Positions 33,389-38,888 of a DNA stretch of 64,000 bases are shown here, piece by piece. Position 1 is the stretch's first letter. Every line of letters begins with the position of its first letter. The position numbers and the translations under genes are program-made. The notes under the pieces were generated by a model, which saw nothing but the letters and a program-made list of their open reading frames with translations, searched no databases and had not been told where the DNA came from. Source of the stretch: Chloroflexota bacterium (GTDB taxonomy: Bacteria; Chloroflexota; UBA11872); contig JAJEGF010000025.1 in NCBI GenBank assembly GCA_022820025.1, positions 209,522 through 273,521 of the forward strand, in the 5' to 3' direction.

Positions 33389-34102
33389 CTAGGTGTTTCC
33401 GTGCAGACCGCACTCGGTCTTTGACAGTCCGCGCCAGCGGCCGCTGCGCAGGGACTCTCCGGGCAGCGGACGCGACGTGCAGCGCGTGTCGCAACCCAGG
33501 CTTGGGTAGCCCTCGTCGTGCAGACGGTTGTAGGGCACGTCGTGGTGGCGGATGTAGTCCCAGATCTCGGCTTCGGTCCAGCCGCTCAGCGGCGCGACCT
33601 TCACCAGCCCGAACTTCGCGTTCCACTCGATCACCGGCGTCGCCGCCCGCTGCGCCGACTGGTCGCGCCGCACACCCGTGATCCAGGCGCGCTTGTCCGC
33701 CAGCGCCCGCGCGTTTGGCCCGACCTTGCGGATCCCGCAGCAGGTATCCGGGTCTCGATCCCACAGCGACGCGCCATGGAGCGCGGCCTGGTCCGCAAGC
33801 GACAACTCCGAGTGATATGCCGTGGCCTCGAACCCGTACTGCGCTTCGATCCGCTCGCGGACCTCGTGTGTGGCCTCGAAGAGCAGGCCGGTGTCCAGGT
33901 AATAGACCTCCACATCGTCCAGCAAGTCCAGCCGCGCCAGCATGTCCACCAGCACCATTCCGCTGGGACCGCCGAACGAACACGACAGCGCCACGTCCGG
34001 CGCATAGGCGCGCACGACTTCGCGCAGCACCTCCTCGGCGGGCAGGCCCTGCAGCCGCGGTCCTTCGCGCCGCAGGTCGATTTCGGCAAGTTGCACGTTC
34101 AC
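33389..34102 (-). CDS. cysH: adenylyl-sulfate (APS) reductase, CysH family
   Basis: Reduces APS (or PAPS) to sulfite. It is 237 residues, with a GTG start. The PP-loop reads [19 protein letters not shown]. The iron-sulfur type is shown by the Cys pair in [13 protein letters not shown] and a second Cys pair in [13 protein letters not shown], plus the redox-active tail KTECGLH. That four-Cys set marks the 4Fe-4S APS-reducing subgroup. The second pair is spaced Cys-x3-Cys where Cys-x2-Cys is usual. GGAGG lies 13 bases before the GTG and can be hidden by a G-run just upstream. The gene is preceded by a cysteine-rich short ORF and a structured leader, suggesting regulation by cysteine supply. Confidence 0.92.
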
Positions 34103-34106
34103 GATT

Positions 34107-34239
34107 GAGAGAAAACCTCCGGGGGCACAGGGGCAAAAAACGCCCCCTCGCTTGAATTCAGGTGCTCGACGCCGTTCTAGGGCGTAGTCAGTGGAGACTG
34201 ATCACGCGGCCGGGGCGCAAACGCCCGGCCGGCGTCGAG
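34107..34239 (-). promoter_or_regulatory. structured leader of cysH with a possible ribosome-site lock
   Basis: On the minus strand, CTCGACGCC (34239-34231) pairs perfectly with GGCGTCGAG (34173-34165) and encloses two hairpins: GGCCGGGCG-TTTG-CGCCCCGGCC (one bulge), and a stem with CAGT-CTCC-ACTG at its tip. This makes a three-way junction. Downstream, GGGGGC (34147-34142) can pair with GCCCC (34134-34130) or with GCCCCC (34126-34121), which touches the GGAGG ribosome site of cysH (34120-34116). It starts about 40 bases after the stop of the polycysteine ORF. A ribosome stalled upstream could change which pairing forms. No match to a known riboswitch class was recognised. Confidence 0.45.
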
Positions 34240-34279
34240 AAGTGCCTGGCATGGCCAGGACTTTGCGGGCGTGAGAGGC

Positions 34280-34441
34280 CTAGACCACCACGCCCCGTAT
34301 ACAGGCGCAGGTGCAGTCGCAACAACAACACGTGCAGCCGCTGGGGTGCTCGCGTGAAGCGATAGCCGCCGACGCAAGCAGCCGCTGGCCGCTCGGCGTC
34401 GGCGCGGGATCGGACGTTTTGTCGGGGGTCAGACCGCGCAT
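34280..34441 (-). CDS. polycysteine short ORF (putative cysteine-responsive leader peptide)
   Basis: A 53-codon ORF whose ATG lies in the last codons of the sulfite reductase gene, overlapping its stop (ATGcgcggtcTGA), and which ends at TAG 34280-34282. It starts MRGLTPDKTSDPAP and carries the run CTCCCCDCTCAC: eight Cys in twelve codons, four of them TGT, three of those consecutive. It ends IRGVVV. It is followed by a structured leader and cysH. In mycobacteria, polycysteine leaderless short ORFs are known cysteine-responsive attenuators of sulfur genes; by analogy, slow decoding when Cys-tRNA is short could expose cysH. Here it is translationally coupled to sir, not leaderless. No homologue could be checked. 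Confidence 0.7.
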   Translation of the reverse strand: MRGLTPDKTSDPAPTPSGQRLLASAAIASREHPSGCTCCCCDCTCACIRGVVV

Positions 34442-36210
34442 TCGCCCTCGCCGCGTTCCAGCACATACAGCCGGTCGCGGTCCCAGTCCACGAAGTGGTC
34501 CGGTTCGTCGTCGTATTCGGGCGGCAGCGCCAGGTCCTTCAACAGTCCGTCGAAATACAGCCGGTCGTGCCGGTCAACGTACTCGTTGAACGACTCGTCG
34601 TCCGCCAGGCGGCTTTCCTCGTAGTCCAGGATCAAGCGCTCCACCACCGTCGGCGCACGCTTGGCCGGCACCCGCGTCCGCAGTAGCAGGCCCAACCGCA
34701 TCGGCGACCCGTAGCGGCGGTTGCCGCCGATGAAGGTGTGGTAGGCCGGCACCTGCCGCCCGCCGGTCTTGATGGCCGCGCCGTGGAAGCCGATGTTCCC
34801 CACGTGGTGCATGCCGCACGAGTTCGGGCAGCCGCTCATGTTGATCAGGATCTGCCGCGTCAGCGGATCCTGGATGTGCATTTCCTCGACCTTGGCCTGG
34901 ATGGCCTTGTTGAGACCCATTGACGACGTGATCCCCAGCTTGCAGCTGTCCGTACCGGGGCAGGACACCACGTCGTTGATCTCGTAGGCGCCCGGATTGC
35001 CCAGACCCAGCGCCCGCAATTCCTTCCAGACGGGGTAGACGCTGTTGTCCGGAATCCAGCGCAGCACGATGTTCTGCCAGTGCGTGGTTCGCGCCCGGCT
35101 GGCGCCGTAGTCACGCAGGATCTGCGCCAGGCCGCGGAATTGTTCGGGACTCAGGTCGCCCTGGTTCACCTTGACTTCCATCGTCGAGTACCCGGCCTGC
35201 ACCTGCGGCGCCACGTTCGTGGAGCAGAAGCGCTCGAACAGGTCGGCGTCCTCTTCCAGGATTACCGGCGCCTCGGCCGGCATCTCGGGAGCTTCCGCCT
35301 CTTCGTTGTCGATGAAGACCAGGTCGTCCAGGTCGTAGTCGCGCTGCGCCCAGGCGCCGGTCAACTCGGCCTCGACCATCTCGCGGAAGCGCTCAATCCC
35401 GACCCGATGCACCAGGAACTTGATGCGGGCCTTGGCGCGGTTGCGGCGCAGTTCGTCGGACCGGTTGAAGATTCGCAGCACCGCCTCGGACACCCGCAGG
35501 TAGTCGCTCAGGGGCACGAAGTCGTACAACTCGAACGCGTGCTTGGGCATGATTGACAGCCCGCCGCCGGTCAGCATCCGGAACCCGCGCTCTTCCTTGC
35601 CGTCCACTTCGCGGATGGTCGAGAAGAACGCCAAGTCGTGAATCTCGCCGATCGTGCGGTCGGTGTCCGATCCGCTGAACGAAACCTTGAACTTCCGGGG
35701 CAGCAACTGGGTCAGCGGGTTACGCACGAAGTAGCGCACGAAGGCCCCCGCGTACGGCGTCGCGTCGAACGTCTCGTCGTCCGCCACGCCCGCCCAGGGA
35801 TCCCCGGTCACGTTGCGCACCGTGTTGCCGCAGGCTTCCCGCGTCGACAGCCCGGCGCGACCCAGCACCCGCAGCGCGTCCCAGGCCAGTGGCAGCGGGA
35901 TGTGGTGCAACTGGATGTTCTCGCGCGTGGTGATGTGACCCTTCTTCAGCGGGGCGAACCGCTCGGCCACCTCGGCAAAGGCATCCAACTGGTCCGCCGT
36001 GACGCCGCCCATCGGCAGCTTCACCCGCAGCATCTGCACGTTCGGCTGGCGCTGGCCGTAGACGCCCTGCTTCAGCCGGTAGCCGATGAACTTCTCTTCG
36101 ACGCGCTGACCGGCCAGGTAGGCCCGGGCCTCCGTGGTGAAATCCTCGAACTCCTCGTCGAGGATCTCGATCACGTGCCCAGCCGTGTCTCTGCGTTCAG
36201 TTACTGCCAT
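34429..36210 (-). CDS. siroheme-dependent sulfite (or nitrite) reductase
   Basis: A 593-residue ferredoxin-type reductase taking sulfite to sulfide in six electrons. It has the two-fold repeat of the family: substrate-binding Arg/Lys in LKKGHITTRENIQLHHIP, GNTVRNVTGDPWAG, and the 4Fe-4S-siroheme ligands in VVSCPGTDSCKLGI (Cys-x5-Cys) and MSGCPNSCGMHH (Cys-x3-Cys). Sequence alone does not separate SirA from NirA, but cysH-cysC-sat downstream and siroheme genes in the same run favour sulfite. It is the first gene of the cluster; its 3' end overlaps the start of the polycysteine ORF. The 112 bases upstream hold its presumed promoter. Confidence 0.92.
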   Translation of the reverse strand: MAVTERRDTAGHVIEILDEEFEDFTTEARAYLAGQRVEEKFIGYRLKQGVYGQRQPNVQMLRVKLPMGGVTADQLDAFAEVAERFAPLKKGHITTRENIQLHHIPLPLAWDALRVLGRAGLSTREACGNTVRNVTGDPWAGVADDETFDATPYAGAFVRYFVRNPLTQLLPRKFKVSFSGSDTDRTIGEIHDLAFFSTIREVDGKEERGFRMLTGGGLSIMPKHAFELYDFVPLSDYLRVSEAVLRIFNRSDELRRNRAKARIKFLVHRVGIERFREMVEAELTGAWAQRDYDLDDLVFIDNEEAEAPEMPAEAPVILEEDADLFERFCSTNVAPQVQAGYSTMEVKVNQGDLSPEQFRGLAQILRDYGASRARTTHWQNIVLRWIPDNSVYPVWKELRALGLGNPGAYEINDVVSCPGTDSCKLGITSSMGLNKAIQAKVEEMHIQDPLTRQILINMSGCPNSCGMHHVGNIGFHGAAIKTGGRQVPAYHTFIGGNRRYGSPMRLGLLLRTRVPAKRAPTVVERLILDYEESRLADDESFNEYVDRHDRLYFDGLLKDLALPPEYDDEPDHFVDWDRDRLYVLERGEGECAV

Positions 36211-36322
36211 GCGTGGCCTCCGCGCGCCGCCCGTCGCGGCCGGGTAATGAGCCTACCTGTTATTCCCCGCGCAGGCAGGCGGGCCGATTCTATGAAGAAA
36301 CACCCGCAGGGCGCCACCCCAC

Positions 36323-37426
36323 TTAGACCCGATCGGCCGACCATTCGTGAAACGCCAGCGGCAGCCCCGCATCCTTCACCCCCGGCGGACGCTCCGGCCC
36401 GAACAGCAGCTTGACCGCATCGTTGCGGCTCAGCCGCACACGCTGGCCGCCGAGCGTCATCGAAATCGTGTCGCCCTCGTCCACCGGGTCCAGGTCCTCG
36501 CGCCCATACGCCCGCACCAGCCCCACCGGATCCTCGATGCGGATCATGCCGATGTAGTCGGTCGATTGCATGATTCCAACGGAATCCAAGACGTCCGTCA
36601 CGTCGTCCGCCCGCGCCGGCGCCATCAGGGTGGCGTGAACCGTCGGGCTTTGGCTGGCCTGGCGCTCGGCGACCGACTGCGTTGACGTCTTGACCGACGG
36701 GTCGTCCCACTGCGCCAGCAGCCGCGCGATCATGGGCACCACCAGGTCGGCCGGTCCGCCGTATTCCGCCATCGCCGTGCCGCGCGCGAAAATGTAGGCC
36801 CCCTCCCGGCCGTCCCGCTCGGCCACCCAGACCGTCGAGTTGCGCCGCTTCAGCATGGCCCGCATGTGGTCGGGCGGACGCACCGCGCCCCAGGCCCGCG
36901 CCTCGCTGATCTCCGAGAGCGCCTCAAAATCCTTATCCGTCGCCGGCCGGATCTCGGGCGCCGGCTCGTCCGGCAGAAACGACCGGTTCCCCCGGTCGAA
37001 GCGATACACCCGAACCGTCCCGCCGTACTCCCACCCCTGCTTGCGGTACCAGCTGGGCACGCCGGTCGAAAGCAGGCTGACGTGGGATCCCAGCTCCGCC
37101 ATGCGCTCGATGCAGGCGTCCAGCACCCGCGTGGCGTAGCCGCGCCGACGGTATGGCACGTCGGTCGAGACCCCGTTGATGCCGCCGATGCGCAACTCCA
37201 CGTCATCCAGCCGCGTGTCGTGGGGATAGATGGCCGTGGAGGCCACGATCTGGTCGTCCTCGCGGACCACGAAGATGTTCGGCACGTTCTCCGGCTGATG
37301 CACGTGCGGCCAGTCCTCGCCGTAGGTGGGATCGCTGCCCACCTCCTCGCGCATCACGCGGTTGACGTGGTCGATCAGGTCCTGCCGCTCATCCAGCCGC
37401 ATCACCCGCGGCCCGTCCGCGCTCAT
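36323..37426 (-). CDS. GNAT-type N-acetyltransferase, Eis-like three-domain protein
   Basis: A 367-residue protein. Residues about 1-150 form a GNAT domain with the acetyl-CoA loop VPYRRRGYATRVLDA. A second degenerate GNAT-like part follows (about 160-280). The C-terminal ~100 residues (DPVGLVRAYGRED to FHEWSADRV) have the sterol-carrier-like fold pattern seen in Eis-type acetyltransferases. Those enzymes acetylate amines such as aminoglycosides or proteins, but the substrate here is unknown. The ATG at 37426 was chosen because the open frame upstream is Arg-rich and not conserved. It is divergent from a methyltransferase gene, with about 100 bases for both promoters. Confidence 0.8.
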   Translation of the reverse strand: MSADGPRVMRLDERQDLIDHVNRVMREEVGSDPTYGEDWPHVHQPENVPNIFVVREDDQIVASTAIYPHDTRLDDVELRIGGINGVSTDVPYRRRGYATRVLDACIERMAELGSHVSLLSTGVPSWYRKQGWEYGGTVRVYRFDRGNRSFLPDEPAPEIRPATDKDFEALSEISEARAWGAVRPPDHMRAMLKRRNSTVWVAERDGREGAYIFARGTAMAEYGGPADLVVPMIARLLAQWDDPSVKTSTQSVAERQASQSPTVHATLMAPARADDVTDVLDSVGIMQSTDYIGMIRIEDPVGLVRAYGREDLDPVDEGDTISMTLGGQRVRLSRNDAVKLLFGPERPPGVKDAGLPLAFHEWSADRV

Positions 37427-38362: not shown

Positions 38363-38647
38363 CTACGCCGCCACCAGCGGCTCGATCGAACTCAGATCCG
38401 TCGTCGCCCGCGCAACCTCCAGGTCGTACATCCGCTGCAAATTCAGCCAGAACTCCGGCGTCATCCCCAGCGCCTTCCCCAACCGCAACGCCGTATCCGC
38501 CGTTACTGACCGCCGCCCGTGAACAATCTCATTGATCCGCCGCGGCGGCACGCCCACGGTCCGCGCAAGGCGGTACTGTGTGACCTCAAGCTCCTCAAGC
38601 ATCTCCGCCAGATGCGTTCCCGGATGGATCGGCCCCATGCTGGCCAT
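38363..38647 (-). CDS. higA: HigA-family antitoxin
   Basis: A 94-residue helix-turn-helix protein of the XRE/HigA type: IHPGTHLAEMLEELEVTQYR, then LARTVGVPPRRINEIVHGRR, then LRLGKALGMTPEFWLNLQ, the classical HigA order. It would neutralise HigB and repress the operon. The frame is open upstream to 38767, overlapping higB; the ATG at 38647 (MASMGPIHPG) or three codons later is the natural start. It follows higB by 13 bases. Confidence 0.9.
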   Translation of the reverse strand: MASMGPIHPGTHLAEMLEELEVTQYRLARTVGVPPRRINEIVHGRRSVTADTALRLGKALGMTPEFWLNLQRMYDLEVARATTDLSSIEPLVAA

Positions 38648-38660
38648 GTCGTCGTGCTCC

Positions 38661-38888
38661 CTAGTGGTAGTCCGTGATTTCAATGTCCATGGCGCCCCGC
38701 CCGGTCCAACGAAAGCACACACGCCACTGGTCGTTGATGCGAATGCTGTACCAGCCTGCTCGGTCACCGCGCAACGCCTCGAGGCGATGCGACGGCGGCA
38801 CGCTCAGGTCCGACAGCCTCGTCGCCGCGACGACCCGCTGCAGCCGCATCCGTGCTCGTCGCTGAATGTCTACAGGAAGACGCCGCAC
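38661..38888 (-). CDS. higB: HigB-family mRNA interferase toxin, unusually short N-terminus
   Basis: RelE-superfamily toxin that cleaves mRNA on the ribosome. The diagnostic core is DLSVPPSHRLEALRGDRAGW, YSIRINDQWRVCFRW and DIEITDYH at the C-terminus. From the first usable start (GTG 38888) it has 75 residues, about 17-20 fewer than typical HigB. Family-like residues RFADRRAEQLFNGEF are encoded in frame just upstream, but no ATG, GTG or TTG opens them. It may use a rare start, be truncated, or be inactive. A promoter match lies at 38946-38974. Confidence 0.8.
   Translation of the reverse strand: MRRLPVDIQRRARMRLQRVVAATRLSDLSVPPSHRLEALRGDRAGWYSIRINDQWRVCFRWTGRGAMDIEITDYH

Follow-up and report, generated by a model that had tools for sequence, protein, structure and literature searches.

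A short ORF with a dense run of cysteine codons overlaps the end of sir and precedes cysH in the 64,000-nucleotide stretch of Chloroflexota DNA analysed here (the window), and it is probably a cysteine-sensing switch located inside the operon and not at its front. On balance we favour a cysteine-responsive ribosome-stalling attenuator within the operon, by which starvation would raise the expression of cysH and of the later genes. Such a device would be of a known kind; new would be that it sits inside an operon, begins within sir and has no output element that can be recognised. Among the explanations considered, attenuation by cysteine accounts best for the gene context together with the Cys run, the freeze at the initiation site, the neutral spacer and the two competing hairpins.

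The ORF is found on the minus strand (34441..34280, ATG...TAG), comprises 53 codons and is translated as MRGLTPDKTSDPAPTPSGQRLLASAAIASREHPSGCTCCCCDCTCACIRGVVV. Its Cys run occupies codons 36-47, CTCCCCDCTCAC, with 8 Cys in 12 codons (4 TGT and 4 TGC); the last Cys is codon 47 and the stop is codon 54. Counted from its ATG, the short ORF overlaps the end of sir by 13 nt, the sir stop codon included. Thus far the initial annotation, which had reported a 53-codon ORF with eight Cys in twelve codons, four of them TGT, and an overlap with the sir stop, was confirmed; its spacing of 178 bases between the stop and cysH was about right, the distance from the TAG to the cysH GTG (34102) being 177 nt. 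No other case of 8 Cys in 13 codons was encountered in 266 kb, sampled as 533,000 six-frame windows, in which the runner-up had 6. TGT accounts for 4 of the 8 Cys codons of the short ORF versus 3 of 28 in seven genes of the window. The features of the region are collected in Table 1.

Table 1. Features of the sir-cysH region, in window coordinates.
Feature	Position	Strand	Basis or remark
sir, nitrite/sulfite reductase, C-terminal end GEGECAV*	34429..36210	-	Pfam NIR_SIR
Last 20 sir codons, frozen synonymous sites	34432..34491	-	lowest of 574 windows
Candidate SD (GAGG) of short ORF, within sir	34446..34449	-	GGCGAGGGCGAATG in all members
Short ORF with Cys run	34280..34441	-	53 codons
Cys run, codons 36-47, CTCCCCDCTCAC	34301..34336	-	ORF translation and window scan
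53-nt block: last Cys codons, stop, hairpin beyond	34265..34317	-	identical in 11/11 sequences
Hairpin P0, Cys codons 43-47 with codons 49-52, -15.4 kcal/mol	34286..34313	-	predicted
Hairpin P1, codons 49-52 with CACGCCC past stop, -18.3 kcal/mol; excludes P0	34267..34295	-	predicted
Hairpin P2, CCTGGYCAYGCCAGG	34242..34261	-	predicted
Three-way junction, about 10-bp stem CTCGACGCCG/CGGCGTCGAG and two inner hairpins	34165..34239	-	one-sided G-C/G-U changes only
GGGGC/GCCCC hairpin, no U tract after	34130..34146	-	predicted
cysH SD (GGAGG)	34116..34120	-	sequence and alignment
cysH, (P)APS reductase, presumed regulated gene	33389..34102	-	Pfam PAPS_reduct, NCBIfam phosphoadenylyl-sulfate reductase

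The genes around the short ORF follow the order sir, cysH, cysC, sat, hemC, cobA and hemD, as had been annotated, in agreement with the Pfam order NIR_SIR, PAPS_reduct, APS_kinase, ATP-sulfurylase, Porphobil_deam, TP_methylase and HEM4. Placement within this sulfur-assimilation operon and the overlap with sir support the earlier view of an ORF embedded in the operon and coupled to the upstream gene, and with its ATG within sir and a candidate GAGG SD ahead the ORF appears, as had also been proposed, not to be leaderless. A second Cys-run ORF was not found upstream of any of the PALP genes examined, which counts against the attenuator reading.

Near genomes were gathered by a sir search, and the sir-cysH gap was obtained from the window genome and 10 near genomes, the nearest named relatives being Chloroflexi/Chloroflexota MAGs. 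The short ORF is present in all 11, at equal length, with no indel and with 6-8 Cys, and hence the Cys run, whose conservation had been put forward as a check, is kept in every near relative sharing the gene order. Neither the two outliers classified in the same genus (sir 86% and 82% identical) nor six genomes of the sister genus have it. Across 90 Chloroflexota cysH upstream regions, the near clade (n = 10, window included) has 6-8 Cys per 13 codons and the other 80 have at most 5; an antisense control reached 6. Judged by this distribution, the Cys-run ORF is a lineage-specific invention of one small uncultured Chloroflexota group, because the near clade alone has the Cys run, while the outliers, the sister genus and the 80 other cysH regions are devoid of it. 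The suggestion of a widespread element is therefore not supported, a single clade of the phylum having it. Matches to CCCxCxCxC outside the clade, in 400 Chloroflexota genomes, were about as many as in a reversed control, and nine of them, when checked, proved to be other frames of ordinary genes or to have no sulfur context. Only one copy of the element occurs in the genome, and the idea of a mobile or repeated element was rejected on this ground.

Conservation is concentrated at the two ends of the ORF. In ten aligned near sequences, variable third positions amount to 1/20 in the last 20 sir codons, against 306/593 gene-wide, the lowest third-position variation among 574 windows; in the sister genus the same 20 codons vary at 4/20, with a gene-wide average near 6.4 per 20. 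This frozen sir end contains GGCGAGGGCGAATG, that is, the candidate SD and the ATG of the short ORF. Two Glu codons at the sir end read GAG then GAA in the members, yielding GAGG and ATG, and GAA then GAG in eight Chloroflexota outgroups. Spacer codons 5-36 present 14, 19 and 16 variable columns by codon position and differ at up to 34/96 sites between genomes; they bear no sign of selection on the peptide and appear free to drift. The open frame alone is weak evidence, because the spacer remains stop-free in 14% of column shuffles. Downstream, a stretch of 53 nt is invariant; it begins at codon 42, includes the stop and extends 15 nt further. None of the three codon positions varies in the later Cys codons, and Cys36, Cys38 and Cys40 are replaced by Ser in some genomes. 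Since the Cys tract is frozen alike at every position, the constraint acts on nucleotides, and the freeze by itself does not demonstrate codon-level selection for Cys. The synonymous-site pattern that the initial annotation had proposed to look for is present at the initiation region, while the invariant Cys tract, frozen at all positions, does not display it and three 5' Cys codons give way to Ser in some genomes. Two frozen ends joined by a neutral spacer would be the pattern expected from a leader peptide read for its codons.

Two mutually exclusive hairpins, P0 and P1, are predicted at the end of the ORF. Of 3000 dinucleotide shuffles, 1 gave both hairpins at such strength (p about 3e-4), a figure that is somewhat optimistic because the segment borders were picked after seeing the fold; among window segments, 2 of 6396 did. 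In folding of the growing RNA, P0 is predicted to form first and P1 then to replace it. This modelled competition would correspond to an attenuator layout with the sensor codons in the first arm, and the invariance of the block may be explained by bases that have to serve two pairings as well as a codon and are therefore unable to drift. Two-sided covariation was not found in any helix; the structures further downstream (P2, the three-way junction and the GGGGC/GCCCC hairpin) have one-sided changes as their only support. The sir-cysH gap has no intrinsic terminator, and in the window no consensus promoter within it passed the scan. Rfam, T-box and known riboswitches included, returned no match other than one chance match at E 2.9, so a known RNA family was dropped. 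CCTCTC past the stop, considered as an anti-SD for cysH, was also dropped, because 21% of random 20-mers pair equally well.

Our reconstruction adds translation, stalling, a direction and an output step to the ORF, overlap and conservation read from the sequence and to the hairpins predicted from it. Ribosomes finishing sir would restart on the overlapping short ORF. At low Cys-tRNA they would stall in the Cys run and mask the 5' arm of P0, and P1 could then form around the stop codon; with ample cysteine they would proceed to the stop codon and block P1 for as long as they remain there. The P0/P1 state would set the expression of cysH and of the following genes, with more under starvation, the direction in which starvation opens cysH being inferred from biology. 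As output, the Cys-codon segment could mask the cysH SD, or Rho-dependent termination could act in the C-rich stretch past the stop, and the evidence favours neither. Rho-dependent attenuation is possible, given that 22 of the 50 nt past the stop are C and 12 are G, and that Rho is encoded. A more detailed version can be advanced tentatively, although it is rather less likely than not to hold: an operon-internal attenuator fed by sir ribosomes, in which the sir end doubles as SD and start of the Cys-run sensor, cysteine supply sets the sulfite-reduction and sulfate-activation halves apart, and two competing hairpins at the sensor stop act through an output without an intrinsic terminator.

In the folding models the ribosome was placed at Cys41-47 or on the stop codon, or was left out. 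Exposure of the cysH SD was nearly constant across ribosome positions (means 0.15-0.24 in all states), and its opening cost shifted by no more than about 1 kcal/mol, a difference that lies within the error of models of this type; a ribosome-dependent SD switch at equilibrium is thus not predicted by folding, and this, like the missing intrinsic terminator, counts against the attenuator reading. When the RNA ends at the cysH start codon, the Cys-codon segment is predicted to pair with the cysH SD with a probability of about 0.45 if the ribosome is upstream at Cys36-39, and of 0 if it is over Cys43. Such pairing is seen only in RNA cut at the start codon, and covering the segment lowers the opening cost by about 1 kcal/mol.

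Three other explanations have to be weighed. The element could be a structured RNA in the operon that serves mRNA processing or stability, or that is a riboswitch not yet described, with the cysteine reading incidental. The nucleotide-level constraint on the Cys tract, the loss of 5' Cys codons of the run in some genomes and a structure that extends over the 150 nt up to cysH and has one-sided G-C/G-U changes all agree with it; nevertheless, it leaves unexplained the synonymous freeze around the ORF ATG 100 nt upstream, the constant 32-codon neutral spacer and a cysteine frame ahead of a cysteine-pathway gene, and it has no Rfam match. We regard it as unlikely, though deserving of consideration.

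An internal promoter or operator of cysH within the invariant block (TTGCCA or TTGTTG, then TATACG) is improbable. Two ORF-less relatives do carry sigma70-like promoters in the sir-cysH gap, but none in the window gap passes the consensus scan, the best -35/-10 pairs picked by eye are 15 or 18 apart and lack the last T of the -10, and the sequence between the boxes varies no more than the boxes do, which is not what a promoter would show. Even less credit can be given to a functional Cys-rich peptide, for example a metal- or Fe-S-binding one: its C-terminal CCxCxCxC pattern and the replacement of Cys by Ser only would suit such a product, yet codons 5-36 are without visible constraint, no family matches, and the constraint continues past the stop codon into untranslated RNA.

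At operon fronts, attenuators that sense an amino acid are textbook knowledge. In those of trp and his the sensor codons lie in arm 1, the 1:2 and 2:3 hairpins exclude each other and the stop codon adjoins arm 2, all of which the present element shares by prediction; the trp and his attenuators also have a 3:4 terminator with a U tract, which the Chloroflexota gap lacks. Canestrari et al. reportedly described polycysteine leaderless short-ORF attenuators of mycobacteria in 2020. According to three papers that cite this work, such attenuators respond to cysteine and lie upstream of cysteine or sulfur genes at several loci (PMC9031893, PMC9094748, PMC13236596). As portrayed there, they resemble our element in a Cys run near the short-ORF stop and in the position upstream of a cysteine or sulfur gene, and differ in being leaderless and at the transcript 5' end, whereas the Chloroflexota ORF is operon-internal, led by a candidate SD and overlaps sir. 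Several mycobacterial loci are described as being under the same control, compared with the one copy found here. A ribosome stalled on the mycobacterial ORF is described as exposing the RBS of the gene that follows; in the folding models of the present element the exposure of the cysH SD is nearly unchanged. Candidate cys leader peptides have been proposed in Mycobacterium, Propionibacterium acnes and Bifidobacterium longum (PMC1262725, 2005); they too have Cys-codon runs near the stop and no conserved terminator, and Rho termination was also proposed for them, but they are found in Actinobacteria, ahead of operons and without conserved terminator-like hairpins, in contrast to the conserved, predicted competing hairpins in mid-operon here. 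Ribosome-mediated attenuation has also been proposed for the uORFC-8-2 motif upstream of cysS in Rhodobacterales (PMC8632094), which likewise has a conserved AUG and Cys codons in the first stem and occurs outside Actinobacteria; it has two tandem Cys codons and an intrinsic terminator ahead of a tRNA-synthetase gene, whereas the Chloroflexota element precedes cysH and has no terminator. The proposed occurrence outside Actinobacteria would not in itself be a novelty, a Rhodobacterales cysS uORF with Cys codons being already described (PMC8632094). If the attenuator is real, it is a cysteine sensor outside the groups where such sensors are described, and a single-lineage, mid-operon device started from the preceding gene shows how such sensors are born; its signature of a frozen start, a free spacer and a frozen sensor with RNA could guide the search for further cases among uncultured bacteria.

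Some further observations concern the relatives and the neighbouring regions. In one locus (L012:5779-6040, same genome as G014) some 75 nt are missing from the gap, among them the SD, the start and the first codons of cysH, and the junction lies at a GAAATCGA repeat, reflecting either a true deletion or an assembly error. The promoters of the two relatives without the Cys ORF are TTGACT-16-TAGGAT and TTGATA-16-TAGACT, between sir and cysH (L035:3378-3405 and L040:3537-3564), the former region also containing a TTGTTGGTCAACAA dyad, and in these relatives cysH may be a separate transcription unit. The sir leader (window 36210-36323, minus) has a conserved TAGAAT -10-like box in the near genomes, where an inverted repeat, CCTRCCTG...CAGGTAGG, is conserved as well; in the sister genus this position is taken by another inverted repeat. 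For Cys/Met metabolism PLP enzymes, PF01053 gave weak matches only, the best at 35 bits, in G000, G009 and G018, where cystathionine-type enzymes may be missing or diverged. Finally, two adjoining small ORFs at window 38363-38888 (minus) resemble, by eye, a HigBA-type toxin-antitoxin pair.
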